NCBI GenBank assembly: GCA_014695175.1
Contig: JACJNV010000135.1
Location: forward strand, 1 to 57,030
Origin: Microcoleus sp. FACHB-DQ6
GTDB lineage: Bacteria; Cyanobacteriota; Cyanobacteriia; Cyanobacteriales; Microcoleaceae
Direction of reading: 5' to 3'
Length of the DNA: 57,030 nt
Under the pieces are notes generated by a model that saw only the letters and a list, made by a program, of their open reading frames with translations, ran no database searches and had not been told where the DNA came from. Within the stretch, counting starts at the first letter, position 1. Each line of letters starts with the position of its first letter. Positions 11,554 to 20,275 of this stretch are shown one piece after another. Position numbers and translations under genes: made by a program.

Positions 11554-11690
11554 GGGGCGATCGGAAATTACTCCTATATTCATTGAAGATAATTTTGGAG
11601 GCATAGAGGAAAACTTAAACTCAGAAATCACTCAGGGTGATGATCCAGGTAATTATCGTTAATCTTGTAGTAGAATATTACCCCAACAAT

Positions 11691-13277
11691 ATGCCCGTTG
11701 ATACCAAGCTTTATCGTGTTCTAATTGCTAGCCCTGGAGACGTTCCTCAAGAGCGGGAAATTATTCGAGAAGAAATTGCCAGGTGGAATGCAATTCACAC
11801 TTCAGATATGAAAATGATTCTCATGCCTTTGGGATGGGAAACAGATGCAACCCCTGATCTTGAGGAACGCGGACAAGCTATTATCAATCGTCAACTGGTT
11901 GACATTTGCGATCTCCTGATAGGTGTCTTCTGGACTCGACTTGGGACACCCACTCCTCAAGCGGAATCAGGTACTGTAGAAGAGATTGAGAGAGTACATA
12001 ATGAAGGAAAACGCTGCATAGTCTACTTTTCGGATAAAGAAGTATCCCTTTCAGCAACCGATCTAAAACAGTACAAACGCCTTCAAAAATACAAAGATGA
12101 GTTAAACAAGAAAGGATTGACTGATACCTATAAAACTATTGAAAAGTTCAGAGAGAAAGTTTCCCGACATATTGCTGCATCAGTTTTACGAATCGCTAGG
12201 GAGGATACAGAGCGACGAGCAGCACAGCAGGAAGCAAAAGTAACCGAACAGGCGCTCAGACTGCAAACGCCACCAGTTCTAACTTCTCCCAATTTTGAAA
12301 TTTCGTTTGAAACCCTAACAGAGGCTCAAACCTCTGTTAAAAAACTACTTGAGTCTCGCTTCGGTGTTCCAGACATGGAAGAGGTAAAGGAAAAAGAAAT
12401 CGCCAAGGTTCAATCTGTTCTTAGCTCTCCTGATCTCGCTGCTCTTCTTAGTCAGCAACCAACAGTAGAAACCATTTCAGCAATTGCTCAAATTTTAGAA
12501 ACAGCTACTACACCTTCTATCTATGCAATTGCCACGATTTGCAAATATGGAAACGATTCCTCAGTCGATTGGCTAGATATTGTTGGTGACTGGATAGAGC
12601 GTCTCAGTACCAGAAAGGTTGAAAGTGGATACCAATGGGCAAATAATATTAAGATTTATCCTGGTTTACTTCTACTCTACACTGTAGGAATTTCTGCACT
12701 TCGTTCAACGAAAACTAAATTTTTGCGAGAAGCTTTAGAGCGTCAAATCTATTCACTTGACTACGATCGTGAATTTAACTTAATAAACAAATTAGATCCG
12801 AGATATGTATTCTCTGACCGTCTAGGGAAACTTATAGAACCAGGATTTGAACAAAGAAACACTCCCGTTAGCGACCATCTTGCTCCGCTAATCAAAAGTA
12901 AGCTCTATCCTCATGAAGAAGAAGTTCAATATTTAAATTGGTTCGATTTTTTTGAATTTTTGCTTTCTCTAAAATCGGTTCATCTAGAAGAATACCCTTA
13001 TTTCGGCTCATTTACTTGGCGTTGGGAAACGAATAGATTTATCATTAAGTCAATTCAAGATGCAATACTGCAACAAGGTAGATATGGATCAGCAATCTTA
13101 ACTATTTTCAATACAGAAGCTGACTTAGAGCGAACAGCACAGAAGTATGACACTATAGCTAGCCAAAGCCGTTCGGACTTTTGGCGAGCAAGTCCTCATA
13201 AAAATGTTAGCAAACTTATTCAACTAGCAAAATCTGGGAAAAGAATAACGAGCTACCGCGATCTTGGTAACGCATAA
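11691..13277 (+). CDS. DUF4062 (TIR-like) domain protein, putative defence sensor/enzyme
   Basis: The N-terminal 120 residues match DUF4062: YRVLIASPGDVPQERE, LMPLGWETDATPDLEERGQAIINRQLVDICDLLIGVFWTRLGT, then ESGTVEEIERVHNEGKRCIVYF. This Rossmann-like fold resembles TIR/SEFIR domains, and the Glu in the SGTVEEIE segment sits where TIR NADases carry their catalytic Glu (inference). A coiled linker (about residues 130-200) leads to a 330-residue mostly helical C-terminal region that I do not recognise. I chose the ATG at 11691; the frame opens earlier (GTG 11637, ATG 11640), but the added 18 residues look non-native. It lies 64 bases upstream of the TM-Macro gene on the same strand, so both probably form one operon. 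AT content is higher than in the neighbouring core genes. Confidence 0.8.
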   Translation: MPVDTKLYRVLIASPGDVPQEREIIREEIARWNAIHTSDMKMILMPLGWETDATPDLEERGQAIINRQLVDICDLLIGVFWTRLGTPTPQAESGTVEEIERVHNEGKRCIVYFSDKEVSLSATDLKQYKRLQKYKDELNKKGLTDTYKTIEKFREKVSRHIAASVLRIAREDTERRAAQQEAKVTEQALRLQTPPVLTSPNFEISFETLTEAQTSVKKLLESRFGVPDMEEVKEKEIAKVQSVLSSPDLAALLSQQPTVETISAIAQILETATTPSIYAIATICKYGNDSSVDWLDIVGDWIERLSTRKVESGYQWANNIKIYPGLLLLYTVGISALRSTKTKFLREALERQIYSLDYDREFNLINKLDPRYVFSDRLGKLIEPGFEQRNTPVSDHLAPLIKSKLYPHEEEVQYLNWFDFFEFLLSLKSVHLEEYPYFGSFTWRWETNRFIIKSIQDAILQQGRYGSAILTIFNTEADLERTAQKYDTIASQSRSDFWRASPHKNVSKLIQLAKSGKRITSYRDLGNA

Positions 13278-13341
13278 ATATTGTAACAGGCAGTCCAGTT
13301 AGGAATAATCCAGTACAATCAAAGTTTGAAAGTAACACATA

Positions 13342-14214
13342 ATGTCAAATAAATCTGTGAAAATTAGTCTCTACCTAAAGCTAATTACTAAAATTAGCTT
13401 TCCACGATTTGTAAATTCATTCGTGAGTACATTTGGTTTACTGTGGCTATTTATTGAACCTGCTACGCTGGTCTTCCCAGAGAAGCTCAACATAGGTTGG
13501 CTTGGTTACTTTGGACTTGCAGTTTTGTCGTTCATTTTTGCTATCATTCAATGCCGACCTCGAATGGCTATATCTAAAAAACTTATTTCTCCTGATTCAA
13601 ATATTGAAATCAAAATAGGCGATCTCTTTGATGAAAACGGGCATTTAGTCATTGGTTGTAACGATACTTTTGATACAGAAATAGGAGATATTATTCGAGA
13701 CTCCAGTATTCAAGGACAGTTTCTTACACAGGTTTATAGAGGCGATCGCAGCAGATTGGATGCAGATATTGAAGTAGCCCTCCAACCGTATCACACCGAA
13801 CGCCAGGAAGATTCTGATAAAAGTCGAGGAAAAACTTGGCGATACCCCATCGGTACAGTAATTACACTCAGTTCACATAATAAATGCTATTTCTTGACAG
13901 CTTATGGATACATGAACAATAACTTGAATATTCAATCAAATACCGACTATATTATGACTTCGCTGAGTAAGCTCTGGAAAGAAGTTCGTCAAAAGTGCCA
14001 AGGTACAGGTGTAGCTATACCTATCATTGGCTCTGACCTTGCTCGTGTTGGCTTATCTAGAACTGAGTTAGCTAAGTTAATTATTACCTCTTTTATCGTT
14101 GAAACAAAGCGAACCTTCATTACTAAAAAATTAACCGTAATGATTTACGTCGAAGATTTAGATTCTATAGATTTCTATGATTTACAGGAATTTCTTGAAT
14201 CTATCTGCTTCTGA
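13342..14214 (+). CDS. Two-helix membrane Macro-domain protein, ThsA type II-like
   Basis: Residues about 20-75 hold two hydrophobic helices (FVSTFGLLWLFIEPATLVF and WLGYFGLAVLSFIFAII). The remaining 200 residues match the Thoeris ThsA-type Macro domain (former DUF6430): IEIKIGDLFDENGHLVIGCND, TFDTEIGDII, SSIQGQFLTQVY, LDADIEVAL, GKTWRYPIGTV, AIPIIGSDLARVGLS. In type II Thoeris a TIR protein makes a histidine-ADP-ribose signal after phage infection; the Macro domain of the membrane ThsA binds it and the protein damages the membrane. Here the partner is a DUF4062 protein rather than a classic ThsB TIR. Domain recognition is confident; the function is inferred. No clear ribosome-binding site precedes the ATG. 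Confidence 0.85.
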   Translation: MSNKSVKISLYLKLITKISFPRFVNSFVSTFGLLWLFIEPATLVFPEKLNIGWLGYFGLAVLSFIFAIIQCRPRMAISKKLISPDSNIEIKIGDLFDENGHLVIGCNDTFDTEIGDIIRDSSIQGQFLTQVYRGDRSRLDADIEVALQPYHTERQEDSDKSRGKTWRYPIGTVITLSSHNKCYFLTAYGYMNNNLNIQSNTDYIMTSLSKLWKEVRQKCQGTGVAIPIIGSDLARVGLSRTELAKLIITSFIVETKRTFITKKLTVMIYVEDLDSIDFYDLQEFLESICF

Positions 14215-14584: not shown

Positions 14585-15226
14585 TTACTCCCAGTATTTT
14601 TCCCAATCATCCTTAAAAGCTTGCTGCAATCTCTGCATATACGCATCAGTCTTAATCTTCACCATCCACAGATTATTAGCATTGCGGCCTCCCTTGCACA
14701 CAACACCTTCATCCACACCATATTTCCCCTTGCGAAGATCGTCCATAAACTTGCCCGTCAGTTTGCCGCGATAAATCACTCGCGCAATATTTAATTTACC
14801 AAAATCCTGAATAAACTGATCGGGAACAACCATACCGCCCTCAGTTTCCACATCAAAAAGAACCAGTTGTTTGCGATCGTCCTTTTTGTGCTTTCCCGCA
14901 AACGAGTTAGCACCAAAAAACTCTGTAAACACAGTAATTTCAGGGCCGTGATACAGTTCGTTCTCTCGAAATATAGACTCTAAGGGACTAGCAAAGTCTC
15001 TTTTAAATATTTCCGGTGCTTCTTCTAAACCTGGATGTGCAGCATTAAATTCTGCAATTCCCATCTCATCCAAATCAAATCTACTGCGGCGCGTACCAAA
15101 AGCATACCAACCAAGTTCAACTTCCCAAACCCAATGCAAATTAGTGCCATCGTACTTCTCAAAAGCTACACATTGTTCGTAAGGGCAATTTTTACTATCT
15201 GGAATTTTGGGATAGGCAAGAAGCAT
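14585..15226 (-). CDS. RNA ligase family nucleotidyltransferase
   Basis: A 213-residue protein with the ordered motifs of covalent nucleotidyltransferases: motif I EKYDGTN with the adenylated Lys24, motif III-like VFTEFFG, motif IV DEGVVCKG and motif V MVKIKT. It is close to the Rnl2-type RNA ligase domain and lacks any added C-terminal domain. Such enzymes use ATP to form a lysyl-AMP and seal RNA (or modify another nucleic acid) and are often found in phages or repair/defence contexts. It starts at ATG 15226. The next gene on the strand is the small unknown protein at 14242; the defence-like pair follows beyond it. The catalytic class is clear, the substrate is not. Confidence 0.88.
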   Translation of the reverse strand: MLLAYPKIPDSKNCPYEQCVAFEKYDGTNLHWVWEVELGWYAFGTRRSRFDLDEMGIAEFNAAHPGLEEAPEIFKRDFASPLESIFRENELYHGPEITVFTEFFGANSFAGKHKKDDRKQLVLFDVETEGGMVVPDQFIQDFGKLNIARVIYRGKLTGKFMDDLRKGKYGVDEGVVCKGGRNANNLWMVKIKTDAYMQRLQQAFKDDWEKYWE

Positions 15227-15381
15227 AAGTCGTGCGTTAGCGAAGCCCTCGAAGAGGATCGCTCCGCCACAAAAAAGACTATTCTCAGTTTACCCCATAA
15301 CCGACGAAAGCGTTTGCCATAAAACGATCGCGGTTTTTCTCGTACCGAACTCCTGGAGTATTGCTATATATGTGAAGGGCT

Positions 15382-15411
15382 AAAAAGTTAAGCTTAAAAA
15401 CTTAACTTTTT
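15382..15411. terminator. Bidirectional hairpin terminator
   Basis: AAAAAGTTAAG (15382-15392) and CTTAACTTTTT (15401-15411) form a perfect 11-base stem with an 8-base loop and T-rich ends in both directions. It begins 10 bases past the stop of the calmodulin-Erv gene on the minus strand. Confidence 0.85.
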
Positions 15412-15420
15412 AACTGATAT

Positions 15421-17838
15421 TCAAGTAGCCTCGACGAACAAACCGCTTCGAGCAAACTCCTCTTCTTCAGGAGTGAAGACAGGAGCTTCATCCACAAGGT
15501 CAGGGTCAAAGTAGTATATCTCTTGTAGGAATTGTCCCGTGACGATCGCCTCATCCAACTCCTGGATGTAATCTTGAGCAATTAAGCATACCTCCTTGAT
15601 GCCTTCCTCATCCCTCTTATCCAACAGCTTATGCAATATTGCTCTCACCCCTGTCAGTCGTGCTGCGGGCTTGAGGATACCGTAGAGGCGGTACAGCCGA
15701 TCGGTGGCAATGCTGATTTGTTTGAGGGCTTTGGCTTGTGCTAGCTCAGACTCAATGCTGGGCCAATAACGGGTGGTGTAGAATGCTTCCTCGTCCTTTT
15801 GATACCACTCCTCGGATCGCGCAATTGATGAGGAGACAGTGTTGTGCAACTTCCAGAAGAATAAGCGCAGAGAAGGGCCATCTACTACGGTGGACAGCTT
15901 TGCCTCCATTGATACCTCAAAGCTATTCAGACGCGGGTCGCGCCCAAGCACGAGGTACTCCACAGGGTAAATTTCCACCTCCTTATTCTGCACGACGTAG
16001 GCGTTGAGGTGGTGGCGGCAGTAGGGGCAGGGATACATACTGGCAAACAGGTTGAAGAAGTGCTTGAAGATGGCCACCAGAGTTTTTTGCTGTTCTGGGG
16101 TCTTGGTAGAGACTATCTCAGCCGTAGTGTGCAAGAAACGCCACACCGCAGGGCCGATATAGTAAGGGAAGCTGACCCGCATTTGTGAATTCTTTACTTC
16201 AGTGCGATCGATATACACATCGATGAACGCCACATATTGCGAGAGTTCCCCAGACTCGCGCCCAGACTCTAAGCGTTCGCGCCGTTTCTGTATCCCATTG
16301 AGGTAGTGGTGCGTCAAGCGCCATGCCTGTTGAAGCATCAGCTTCTGTTTTGGAGCGCATTTGGGAAAGCCTTCTGCAACATCCGCCCCATAGCGCCCAA
16401 ATTCCCCTGACGTTTTAGTCGCTTCGTACCACTCGTTTAAAGCTGCTTCATCAGGCACCGTGTTGAAGGGAATGTCTGCTTCGGTAATGACGCTGAAGGC
16501 AGCCAGCAACTTCGGCATAAAGTCTTCATACCAATATGCTAGTGGCATCATCGCACCATCTATTTGCTCTAATGCCTCCGACAGGATGACGCGGTTCCAC
16601 TTCTTCAGGTACTCCTTGGGATCTCCCTCGGATTTGGCTGGTGGCGCTGCCATGCTCTCACTCAGCTCCAGGTTTCGCAGTCGGTTGAGTTCGTTGATGG
16701 CAAGCACACCCTCGGCAATGTCACGCAAGTTGAGACTATCCTTTTTGATCGTCATTGCCAACTCGACTGCCGCCCCAAACTTCTCCTTGGCGGTGGCAGA
16801 CTTATCCCGCGCCTGCAACATGGCTTGTTCTTGGGCCAACATTTCAGGAGTTTTTTCTATGGTTTTCCAGTTCTTGATGCGATGCTCTAGTCGGGCATAT
16901 TCATCTTCGACCGATTTAACTACAGCATCCAGTAGAGGGTTGCACGCCGACTCTACTACACCCAATCCTTTATAAAGCGCGATCGTACTCCTGACAAATC
17001 GCACAAAATCAGCAATTTTGTATGGCAAGTCTCTCACGCACAGGTGAGTCTCGTGGTTGGCACAGAAACTCTCGCGGAAGCTGCGGTAGGCTGCTCCCTG
17101 GATCAGACGAAACAAACCAATCTGCATCTCCAAGCGGGACGTACCGCGCTTCTTCTGGGCTTGTGGGTGTTGGGCGAGTAGTTCTTTTAGCCGCGCTATT
17201 TCTCGATTGCAACCGGTGGGTGGTTCTTGTAGATCTTCTAGATTAGGTTCAATAGTGGCAGAAGCTGCCTCGTTGACAGCAGTGGTTATACTTTCGAGCG
17301 CAGCCACTGTACTATCTGAAATCTCGGTTGTCTGTGCACTGACAACCGGAACCGGCAAGTCTTGATCTCGTGTTGCGAGCTCTGACTCATCGGGTACCAG
17401 TGTGCAGAATTCCTCCAAGTCAATTAAGGCATTGCCGTCATGGTCTGCCTCTTTGATGATCTCATCGAGCTCTGACTCTGTTAGCCCAAACGGGCTCATC
17501 ACATCCTGCATCTCGTTTTTACTGATTTGACCGGTACCGTTTTCATCAAATACACTAAATGACATTTTGAGACGACTCTGGCGATCGCCTTGCTGGGACA
17601 CCATCAGCATTTTGAATTCCTCAAAATCGATACTGCCAGACTTGTCTATGTCCACTTCCTCGATCATGTCGCGCAGCTCGGTTTCGTTAGCACTCTGTCC
17701 TAGCGATCGCATCACTTGACCGAGTTCTTCAGATGAAATAGCACCGCTCCCGTCCGCGTCCAATACTTTGAACACTTCCCATAACTTTGCCTCCTCTTCT
17801 TCAGTCATGGCTTTTTTTTCAAACTCCACAGAGGTCAT
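15421..17838 (-). CDS. Calmodulin-like four-EF-hand protein fused to Erv1/ALR sulfhydryl oxidase
   Basis: An 805-residue protein. Residues 12-145 form four canonical 12-residue EF-hand loops: DADGSGAISSEE (27-38), DIDKSGSIDFEE (63-74), DENGTGQISKNE (98-109) and DHDGNALIDLEE (132-143). The intervening helices resemble eukaryotic calmodulin (for example ELGQVMRSLGQ). A 350-residue helical middle region is unrecognised. Residues about 560-680 carry the Erv1/ALR signature: W566-R-F-L-H570, redox pair C604-P-Y-C607 (YPCPYCRHH) and FFWKLHN (H665-N666), which bind FAD and oxidise thiols with O2. A helical, acidic tail ends the protein. ATG 17838 is chosen because GGGAG lies 8 bases upstream; a TTG at 17853 precedes it. 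No signal peptide is visible. The domains are clear; calcium control of the oxidase is inference. Confidence 0.87.
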   Translation of the reverse strand: MTSVEFEKKAMTEEEEAKLWEVFKVLDADGSGAISSEELGQVMRSLGQSANETELRDMIEEVDIDKSGSIDFEEFKMLMVSQQGDRQSRLKMSFSVFDENGTGQISKNEMQDVMSPFGLTESELDEIIKEADHDGNALIDLEEFCTLVPDESELATRDQDLPVPVVSAQTTEISDSTVAALESITTAVNEAASATIEPNLEDLQEPPTGCNREIARLKELLAQHPQAQKKRGTSRLEMQIGLFRLIQGAAYRSFRESFCANHETHLCVRDLPYKIADFVRFVRSTIALYKGLGVVESACNPLLDAVVKSVEDEYARLEHRIKNWKTIEKTPEMLAQEQAMLQARDKSATAKEKFGAAVELAMTIKKDSLNLRDIAEGVLAINELNRLRNLELSESMAAPPAKSEGDPKEYLKKWNRVILSEALEQIDGAMMPLAYWYEDFMPKLLAAFSVITEADIPFNTVPDEAALNEWYEATKTSGEFGRYGADVAEGFPKCAPKQKLMLQQAWRLTHHYLNGIQKRRERLESGRESGELSQYVAFIDVYIDRTEVKNSQMRVSFPYYIGPAVWRFLHTTAEIVSTKTPEQQKTLVAIFKHFFNLFASMYPCPYCRHHLNAYVVQNKEVEIYPVEYLVLGRDPRLNSFEVSMEAKLSTVVDGPSLRLFFWKLHNTVSSSIARSEEWYQKDEEAFYTTRYWPSIESELAQAKALKQISIATDRLYRLYGILKPAARLTGVRAILHKLLDKRDEEGIKEVCLIAQDYIQELDEAIVTGQFLQEIYYFDPDLVDEAPVFTPEEEEFARSGLFVEAT

Positions 17839-18498
17839 ACTAAATTCTCCCAAATTTTTTTATTTTATGTCTATTAATTATGGCCACTATAAGTAGATAA
17901 TCACAAAAAAACAATAATATTTTGTAAGCTTTTGTAGCGGCTGGTTTAGCCTAGGATATATACTAAGAGAGATGTAATGAGTGCAACACCCGCGCTACCC
18001 TGTAATGTTTATTTGAACCCACTTATTTTAATTCCTGATGAATTACGCAACTGTTACAAATGATACTATAACTCTGCATAGTTGCCAGCGTTATCGCAAT
18101 GGTTGGGCGTTTTAGTGGGTAAATTAAATAGTTAGAAAGCCATCCGTATTTAAGTCACGCAAGAGTTTTTATTGTTGACATTGGAAAGTTGACTGTGAGT
18201 CGATAAACTCAAAATTGCGCTGATATATCGAAGATACATATGATGGCCACTTGACTCAACTTTTAATTCCGATGAAGCGCGGATTTGAGCTGAAGCGGTT
18301 ATCCTGCGATATAGACTGAAGGGCGAGATCCTTTTGCATCAGGATTTGAGTTAAAAGTAGACGCAATATTCGGTCATAGTTGAGTGAAGTTAAATCATCT
18401 ATGATAGCAATCCTATTTCATTTGTGAACAATTTTTGTGCCCAGCACGCGATCGAGTCGAGGAGGGGGTTTTAACGATTTCCCCCCTTCCCCTTCTAG
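17839..18498. other. Gene-free region of about 660 bases
   Basis: No convincing frame. It holds the upstream region of the calmodulin-Erv gene and, at about 18461-18490, a weak hairpin (GAGGGGG facing CCCCCC) downstream of the HtrA-type protease gene that could be its terminator. AT-rich, without recognised repeats. Confidence 0.5.
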
Positions 18499-19743
18499 TT
18501 AAAAATCCCTCAGTTGAGCAGTTTGAACCGGAACTTCTTTAATCTGGGCACCGCGGCGCACCTTCAGTTGCAGAATTTGACCGATTTTGCTGTTTTCCAC
18601 CAAATTTTGCAACTGTTCGGGTTCAGTCACTGCCTCGCCGTCAATTTGAACGATGACATCCCCCTTGCGAACCCCTGCTTCCTCAGCAGGCGTATTTGGC
18701 ACAACTCGCATCACTAACACCCCTTGCACTTCCGGCACAATCAAAGGAGCATTGGGGTCAGAATTATTCTCTCTGGCCATTTCAGGAGTCAAAGCAATCA
18801 TCTGAATCCCCAAAAACGGATGGCTGACTTGTTCTCCCTTGGCTAACTGCGCGTAGATGGCCTTGGCTTTGTCGATCGGAATCGCAAAGCCAATACCCAT
18901 TGCATCGGCTCGAATCGCCGTGTTGATGCCAATCACTTCTCCTCTGCTGTTTAACAGGGGGCCGCCGGAATTGCCGGGATTGATGGCGGCGTCGGTTTGA
19001 ATGAAATCGAGCCGCTTGTCGGGAATGCCGACGGCTGCACTGGAGCGTTTGAGGGTGCTGATAATGCCCAAGGTGACGGTGTTGTCAAATCCCAGGGGGT
19101 TCCCCACGGCGATCGCCCAATCTCCCACTTTCACCGCGTCGGAATCTCCCAAGGTGGCCGTCGGCAGGTTTAATTGCTTGGTATTAATTCTGACAACAGC
19201 CAAATCTGTTACTTCGTCAGTACCTTGCACTTCTCCTGGAAATGTCCTGCCGTCGTTTAAGGTGACAGTCACTCGATCGGCTTTGTCAACTACGTGAGCG
19301 TTGGTTAAAACAATCCCGCTTTTGTCAATGATGAAGCCGGAACCTTGACCGCGTAAGCGTTCTTGTCTGGGGGTGAGGCTCCGCAAATCTTCTCCCAAAA
19401 ATCTGCGGAAGAATGGGTCTTCCATTAAGGGGTCGAGGTTGCGACTGACAGTGCGCTCGGTATCAATGCGGACAACTGCCGGCCCGACTCGATCGACAGC
19501 CGCCGTCACAAAACTGCCGGTATCCCCCGGGAGTTGCGGGCTTCGCAGCGCTAACAGTTGCGGATTCGGGGGGGTTGCGGGGGAACTCTGGAACTGTAAG
19601 TTGGGCGGATTTGTGCCATCAGCGGCGGCAGCGGGTGCAGCATTGATACCCAGGGCACTCAGGGCGATCGTCATTGCTAAAATTAGGGCGAACCAACGAG
19701 CACCGATTCGAGGTGTGGGGCGAAAAAACTTAAATAGTCGCAT
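18499..19743 (-). CDS. HtrA/Deg-family serine protease (HhoA/HhoB type)
   Basis: A 414-residue exported protease for damaged envelope or lumen proteins. An N-terminal hydrophobic signal ([24 protein letters not shown], about 17-40) ends in an Ala-rich cleavage region. The trypsin-like domain carries the triad His150 (TNAHVV), Asp180 (VTDLAVV) and Ser259 (GNSGGP). One PDZ domain follows (about 310-410; [29 protein letters not shown]). This single-PDZ design fits the cyanobacterial HhoA/HhoB/HtrA group; I cannot tell which paralogue. It starts at ATG 19743 and is divergent from the CsoR-like metal sensor, with a 178-base shared upstream region. Confidence 0.95.
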
Positions 19744-19921
19744 AGCGTCAATCTTTGTTAGTCTGGGTTAGTCTGGTAAACGTGTGCGATCGTGCGGACT
19801 CAATAATCTGCCGCTATGAAGATCCTAAATATATTTTGACAGTTACAATACATGAGTCAGGAGCCCGCACCAACTCAACATATTCAGAATTCTAACTTTT
19901 AAAAATTCCCTCGTAACCCCA

Positions 19922-20275
19922 ATGATTCTATCTGATACTTCTACTGACAAATCCTTGCCCTCAAATTCCCACCACCATCACGACGATAAATCAGTCCACC
20001 CTCACCATCACGATGAAGAATCGATGCGGCGGCTGGTAAATCGCTTGTCTCGGATTGAAGGGCACGTCCGCGGCATTAAAACAATGGTGCAAGAAAACCG
20101 TCCCTGTCCCGAAGTTCTCGTGCAAGTTGCTGCGGTTCGAGGCGCGCTCGATCGCGTGGCGAGAATCATTCTTGACGAACACTTAACTGAGTGCATTGCC
20201 CGAGCGGCTAAAGAAGGCAATATTGATACGGAAATAGAAGAGTTGAAAGCGGCTTTGGATCGGTTTTTGCCTTAG
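19922..20275 (+). CDS. CsoR/RcnR-family metal sensor, InrS-like, with His-rich N-terminus
   Basis: A 117-residue DNA-binding repressor of the DUF156 family. The metal site pattern Cys62-His87-Cys91 has the same spacing (25 and 4) as C53-H78-C82 in Synechocystis InrS, the nickel sensor, and as the copper sensor CsoR. The first 31 residues add two His clusters (HHHH at 17-20, HPHHH at 26-30), also seen in InrS and suited to nickel or cobalt. The helical core is typical (LVNRLSRIEGHVRGIKTMV). No exporter gene follows; the downstream sequence is an IS1 remnant, so its usual target may have been lost or lie elsewhere. Metal identity is inferred from the His-rich tail. Confidence 0.92.
   Translation: MILSDTSTDKSLPSNSHHHHDDKSVHPHHHDEESMRRLVNRLSRIEGHVRGIKTMVQENRPCPEVLVQVAAVRGALDRVARIILDEHLTECIARAAKEGNIDTEIEELKAALDRFLP

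Follow-up and report, generated by a model that had tools for sequence, protein, structure and literature searches.

QSOX enzymes are defined by the joining of a thioredoxin domain to an Erv domain (PMC3616962), a fusion that has been called unique to the eukaryotic cell. In the calredoxin of Chlamydomonas, calcium-dependent activity has been demonstrated, so EF-hands are able to regulate a thiol redox domain that lies in one chain with them (PMC4911631). Calmodulin-like EF-hands fused to redox domains are described in cyanobacteria and other organisms, with no Erv domain among the fusions listed in the text of that survey, whose Tic110-like entry could overlap with the family treated here (PMC7016017), and Nostocales and Oscillatoriophycidea are two of the few bacterial groups for which Erv1/Alr proteins are recorded (PMC10598087). 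Here we describe a gene at 15421..17838 on the minus strand of a 57,030-nucleotide stretch (the window) of contig JACJNV010000135.1 from the soil cyanobacterium Microcoleus sp. FACHB-DQ6; the features of the gene given below all lie on that strand. Its product of 805 residues (plus stop codon) consists of a calmodulin-like module, a linker, a helical middle region, a predicted Erv1/ALR domain and C-terminal helices, and hundreds of related bacterial proteins have the same core. Calmodulin-switched, calcium-controlled enzymes are a hallmark of eukaryotes, and the bacterial cytoplasm is considered to avoid oxygen-driven disulfide formation. We found no paper on an EF-hand/Erv fusion in the open-access literature, a scope outside which most subscription papers lie; the family is well supported and half-named by databases, with no study of it found.

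The calmodulin-like module spans residues 10-150 (17389..17811). Pfam assigns EF-hand_7 (E 6.4e-28) and, in four stretches, EF-hand_1 to the N-terminal 150 residues, and the secondary structure of the predicted model fits EF-hands. When the PDB is searched by sequence, the best row for residues 11-148 is a calmodulin/calcineurin fusion construct (4il1, E 9.3e-42), followed over the same residues by calmodulin itself (1ahr, E 6.1e-33). The four EF-hands form two pairs and carry the ligand residues in loop 1 (residues 27-38, DADGSGAISSEE, 17725..17760), loop 2 (residues 63-74, DIDKSGSIDFEE, 17617..17652), loop 3 (residues 98-109, DENGTGQISKNE, 17512..17547) and loop 4 (residues 132-143, DHDGNALIDLEE, 17410..17445). 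A first-pass annotation of the window had described four intact loops with calmodulin-like spacing; the four EF-hands and the calmodulin-like character stand, but loop 4 has Ala at position 6, where Gly is usual, and is better called nearly intact. The loops are predicted to bind calcium.

The predicted Erv1/ALR domain, which would bind flavin adenine dinucleotide (FAD), occupies residues 556-705 (15724..16173) and is identified by Pfam, by a core profile and by fold comparison, in which it has the Erv1/ALR fold. Evr1_Alr (PF04777) matches residues 564-620 with E 1.1e-10 and 42.2 bits against a cut-off of 27.6, and the family is matched by all 71 of 71 members at E up to 1. Compared with solved structures, the core profile found Erv1, Erv2 and ALR in 9 of the 10 chains listed at E up to 10, three of them below 0.001 (best E 2.6e-5). 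Conservation was assessed in a 349-member alignment made of 283 of 292 fetched proteins (those of at least 700 residues), 65 open reading frames (ORFs) from related loci and the query. WRFLH (residues 566-570, 16129..16143), CPYC (residues 604-607, the FAD-proximal redox pair, 16018..16029) and KLHN (residues 663-666, 15841..15852) lie where the first-pass annotation had placed them, and both of its domain calls pass profile tests. We take WRFLH and KLHN to be FAD-site motifs. W566, H570, C604, P605, Y606, C607, N666 and V668 are invariant (349/349), R567 is present in 347 and H665 in 348, the remaining member having a gap there. We consider it very improbable that the Erv domain is a dead structural remnant: the usual HNxVN reads HNxVS and the CxxC-to-HN stretch is, we presume, longer than in a textbook Erv protein, but CPYC, W566, H570 and N666 do not vary in a single member. 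The domain would bind FAD, and oxidase activity is plausible.

The remaining cysteines follow another pattern. Exactly one CxxC is found in 348 of the 349 members and 45 have only three cysteines in total, while Cys299 (228/349), Cys494 (267/349) and Cys751 (214/349) are common and not general; therefore no conserved shuttle cysteine pair exists among the 349 aligned members. This invites the alternative that the FAD/CxxC core is a redox sensor or a source of H2O2, reduced by small thiols or thioredoxin and signalling by conformation or peroxide, and does not form protein disulfides. The cytosol is reducing, VKOR is the usual disulfide-forming route of cyanobacteria, and two VKOR matches above cut-off are already present in the same genome, all of which count for a sensor. 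On the other hand, many viral Erv enzymes act as sulfhydryl oxidases although they have no shuttle disulfide (PMC3509050), so that the missing pair does not exclude oxidase activity, and we regard this alternative as improbable. Given the two VKOR matches, the EF-hand/Erv protein is in any case unlikely to be a general disulfide maker.

The first-pass annotation knew of no such fusion. In fact the fusion is not unique: it belongs to a large bacterial family, some members of which are already named for either domain, with database names that include ‘EF-hand domain-containing protein’, ‘histidine kinase’, ‘thiol oxidase’ and ‘ERV1/ALR-related protein’. Three protein searches returned 576, 602 and 602 proteins at E up to 0.001, from about 8000 scored candidates each; the proteins studied came from the best 120 rows of each search, so fractions of them do not reflect frequencies in the population. 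A search with the part that follows the EF-hands matched 20 of 98 relatives (own genome included), some of them in pieces. An Erv1/ALR match occurs in 16 of 386 genomes of the phylum; in 15 of them the open frame is 761-843 residues long, and the remaining one, of 362 residues, belongs to a copy with a deletion. Among 196 genomes around a picocyanobacterium there are 17 with a match, in frames of 751-843 residues, this set overlapping the 386 genomes. Of 398 genomes from the phylum of a proteobacterial carrier, none but the centre genome matches, and the 14 control genomes have no match either. From the frame lengths and the few matching genomes it follows that, in the cyanobacteria searched, Erv1/ALR exists almost only in the long form and is patchily distributed. 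One cyanobacterial copy (L090), with approximately residues 187-537 gone and a frame that ends early, is apparently a decaying gene and was excluded from the 349-member counts. A single plasmid record, from Gemmobacter aquarius, was found at E up to 1e-40; its member (L106, 5476-7731) has, by eye, largely degenerate EF-hands and adjoins sugar-metabolism and DJ-1/PfpI genes. No relative was found in viral contigs (two short peptide patterns per search) or in phages, and an origin from viruses was rejected, the Yasminevirus match discussed below being one Foldseek row.

Between the two domains lie a variable linker (residues 151-228, 17155..17388), mostly poorly conserved and with a predicted local distance difference test score (pLDDT) below 50 over residues 152-210, and a conserved helical middle region (residues 229-555, 16174..17154); a C-terminal helical pair (residues 712-768, 15535..15705) is seen in the model. 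In this whole-protein predicted model (pLDDT 70), the middle region resembles the pseudo-Erv portion of a tandem of QSOX type, with insertions. Two QSOX structures align over 236 and 209 residues, beginning at the first helices of the model, whereas the Erv part of R596 aligns over 110, about half as many. Erv1/ALR chains do not appear among the rows of that comparison, an absence to which we give no weight. The first-pass annotation had left this region unassigned and asked for its fold, and the answer is divided: the resemblance to the QSOX pseudo-Erv half holds in the model but found no support in sequence, and with Foldseek by itself the core had no PDB match of significance. There is a substantial, if lesser, chance that residues 229-555 form an enzyme or binding domain that is helical but unrelated, and that the QSOX match captures only the Erv half plus generic helices, a reading compatible with both oxidase activity and gating. 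The many invariant charged residues of the region, needless in a degenerate scaffold, speak for it; the length of the QSOX alignments and their start at the first helices speak against it. An internal duplication, suggested by eye from FRLIQGAA (243-250) and WRFLHTTA (566-573), was rejected when hhalign of middle against Erv segments gave nothing, a strong mid3/erv row reflecting the overlap shared by both segments.

Within the middle region, a basic helix at residues 349-372 (16723..16794) is the candidate intramolecular target of the calmodulin-like module, on grounds of fold match and co-divergence; for calcium-dependent binding of a basic amphipathic helix, residues 350-372 would be the candidate. 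The model aligns first with peptide-bound calmodulin (2f2p and 4e53), the alignments extending to residues 368 and 370, and its C-lobe together with the basic helix aligns with 9ocw (root-mean-square deviation, rmsd, 2.2) and with calredoxin (rmsd 2.1).

The second line of evidence is the fate of the calcium ligands. A loop was scored as competent when it had ligands at positions 1, 3, 5 and 12, a gap or a frame cut by a contig end counting as not competent. In this biased sample, all four loops are competent in 198 of 349 members and at most one in 126. Judged from the alignment, some or all calcium ligands are lost in many members outside filamentous cyanobacteria. The picocyanobacterial (16) and proteobacterial (13) groups were assigned by place on the tree, rows named by organism being few (e.g. 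P0218, P0234, P0125 and L053), and two proteobacterial records inside the cyanobacterial clade (L050 and L051) were put in neither. Eleven of the 16 picocyanobacterial rows have no competent loop and five have one, in the C-lobe. All 13 proteobacterial-placed rows lack both N-lobe loops, each keeping at least one C-lobe loop and seven keeping both. When the core was scanned in 558 segments of 20 residues, those starting at 354, 353 and 350 ranked first, second and third when scored for similarity that is kept from cyanobacteria to proteobacterial rows and lost to picocyanobacteria; a second stretch starting near 297 nearly equals them (2.80 versus 2.90). When similarity to picocyanobacteria is subtracted from that within cyanobacteria, the best segments start at 359-361 and that at 350 is seventh. 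The mean net charge of residues 349-372 is +3.5 in cyanobacteria (46 rows), +2.2 in proteobacterial rows (13) and -1.8 in picocyanobacterial rows (16), and the mean charge of the EF-hand module is -20.3, -17.5 and -8.6, respectively. The helix is retained where C-lobe loops are retained, and its change alongside ligand loss is the pattern that a lost calmodulin-target contact would give.

Several observations weigh against this interpretation. Plain calmodulin and centrin lobes score within 1 Z, which is a tie, two-lobe fits of the model have an rmsd of about 13, and the first Foldseek row for the model is a calmodulin without peptide, so that docking of the EF-hand lobes on helix 349-372 is a lead only. 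In addition, the picocyanobacterial rows (16) group together as a single branch when 81 core sequences are placed on a tree, and the co-divergence of helix and ligands therefore counts as one event. The module might instead serve for docking or as a scaffold, on membranes, on a calcium-rich sheath or on a partner protein, attached to an Erv oxidase without calcium control. The picocyanobacterial N-terminal region is still alignable although mostly ligand-free, and proteobacterial rows do without N-lobe loops, all while the catalytic residues are invariant, which argues that the region is useful without full calcium binding; EF-hands also sit on unrelated proteins of the same genome, a urea transporter and a histidine-phosphatase ORF. 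We nevertheless consider a docking role unlikely, as more than half of the aligned members retain all four loops and ligand loss is accompanied by the greatest change in the very helix aligned with calmodulin targets.

Although speculative, the mechanism that we narrowly favour is a cytoplasmic, FAD-dependent Erv/ALR thiol oxidase with a QSOX-like pseudo-Erv plus Erv core, in which a calmodulin-like sensor replaces thioredoxin and calcium gates the enzyme via the basic helix. Transfer from a dithiol through CxxC and FAD to oxygen is established Erv chemistry. Here the reduced dithiol of a substrate or redox carrier would attack the CPYC disulfide, and electrons would pass from CPYC to FAD and on to oxygen, yielding a disulfide and H2O2. 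With calcium at its resting level, the enzyme would be kept in a less productive state; on a rise in calcium the EF-hand lobes, chiefly the C-lobe, would clasp the basic helix where it projects from the middle region, and this would change substrate access. Such a gate would make sense because the cytoplasm is reducing and an ungated oxidase would burn thiols. Calcium control of the oxidase is plausible. The fuller picture, a bacterial calcium-gated counterpart of QSOX in the cytoplasm whose built-in calmodulin clasps an internal helix and whose picocyanobacterial branch kept the oxidase and lost the control, we put forward tentatively, as something short of an even chance.

The gene starts with ATG at 17838, preceded by a likely ribosome binding site (GGGAG, 17847..17851), and ends at 15421. 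The EF-hand module stands right at the start of the chain with no evident signal peptide, and by hydropathy alone (no signal-peptide predictor was used) no transmembrane-like segment is found, the highest 19-residue value being 1.10 at residue 440; a cytoplasmic location fits the sequence. Directly 3' of the stop codon is an A+T-rich, terminator-like hairpin (15379..15414) of 16 pairs and -16.2 kcal/mol (z -5.4; 0 of 200 shuffles equally stable), which is not among the sites from a G+C-based terminator scan. ORFs were clustered in 57 related loci plus the window, with flanks of up to about 8 kb, many contigs being shorter, and clusters were counted only if present in at least 5 loci. The gene itself is in 58 of 58, while the next most frequent cluster is in 9 and clusters with a window neighbour are in at most 8; four picocyanobacterial regions were compared, and the single region of a different genus has only the gene itself in common with the other three. 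We propose no operon partner, as no neighbour is widely conserved, and with the hairpin after the stop codon the gene probably stands alone. The complete chromosome of Microcoleus vaginatus HSN003 contains a copy at 97% identity (seen with residues 161-805 and with the full query), so the gene is not an assembly artefact, and its presence in complete chromosomes likewise rules out contamination. PADLOC gave no match for the protein, and a defence role was set aside; Rfam gave no match within the window, and NCBIfam only matches below cut-off for the protein, the best being XopAW over residues 13-197 (EF-hand part and linker).

Elsewhere in the window, two ORFs at 11637-14214 (plus strand) are a possible Thoeris-like defence pair: the first matches DUF4062 just below the Pfam cut-off and resembles the PADLOC candidates PDC-S60 and PDC-S65, and the second has a ThsA macro domain (Pfam E 1.5e-58, PADLOC ThsA E 5.4e-73). 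A small ORF at 14585-15226 (minus strand) matches RNA ligase PF09414 just below cut-off (E 7.8e-6, 26.6 versus 27 bits). At 18499-20275 a trypsin-like/PDZ protease (minus strand), presumably HhoA/DegP-like, is divergent from a metal-sensitive repressor with a His-rich N-terminus (plus strand), and each is found near the gene in five other related loci. The two further EF-hand ORFs of the same genome lie on another contig (C8; L111 2353-4206 and 10099-11769) and encode a histidine phosphatase with EF-hands and a urea transporter with C-terminal EF-hands, with a periplasmic-binding ORF and a globin/pentapeptide ORF between them.

In some bacteria, an enzyme that oxidises proteins may be switched by calcium. 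If sensor and oxidase are joined in one chain as proposed, the protein would be a concrete bacterial calcium effector and, if active, a second source of disulfides or peroxide beside VKOR. Filamentous and picocyanobacterial members offer a natural comparison for gain or loss of calcium control, and the family bears on the origin of the QSOX-like tandem of eukaryotes and giant viruses.

Among described systems, the protein shares with QSOX a C-terminal Erv domain after a helix-rich region, and its predicted fold resembles pseudo-Erv plus Erv. It differs in being bacterial and without an evident signal peptide, and in having EF-hands where QSOX has its N-terminal thioredoxin fold; a Pfam search with the complete protein gave no thioredoxin family at E up to 0.1. 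With Erv1, ALR and Erv2 it has in common the Pfam family and the CxxC, WxxxH and HN motifs, but at about 800 residues it has no conserved shuttle cysteine pair, and we take the HNxVS and the extra conserved stretch between CxxC and HN to be further differences. Mimivirus R596 likewise joins an Erv core to an extra domain (PMC3509050), but is a giant-virus protein with a CX9C shuttle. A 1140-residue Yasminevirus protein (BFVD A0A5K0UAY3), named ‘histidine kinase’ like some cyanobacterial members, matches much of the core by predicted fold (E 5.2e-17, TM-score 0.55 by query, rmsd 13.3, 20% identity). Finally, Chlamydomonas calredoxin has four EF-hands and a thiol redox domain in one chain (PMC4911631), but is a chloroplast protein of a eukaryote in which the partner is thioredoxin, whereas here the EF-hands are followed by an Erv1/ALR core.
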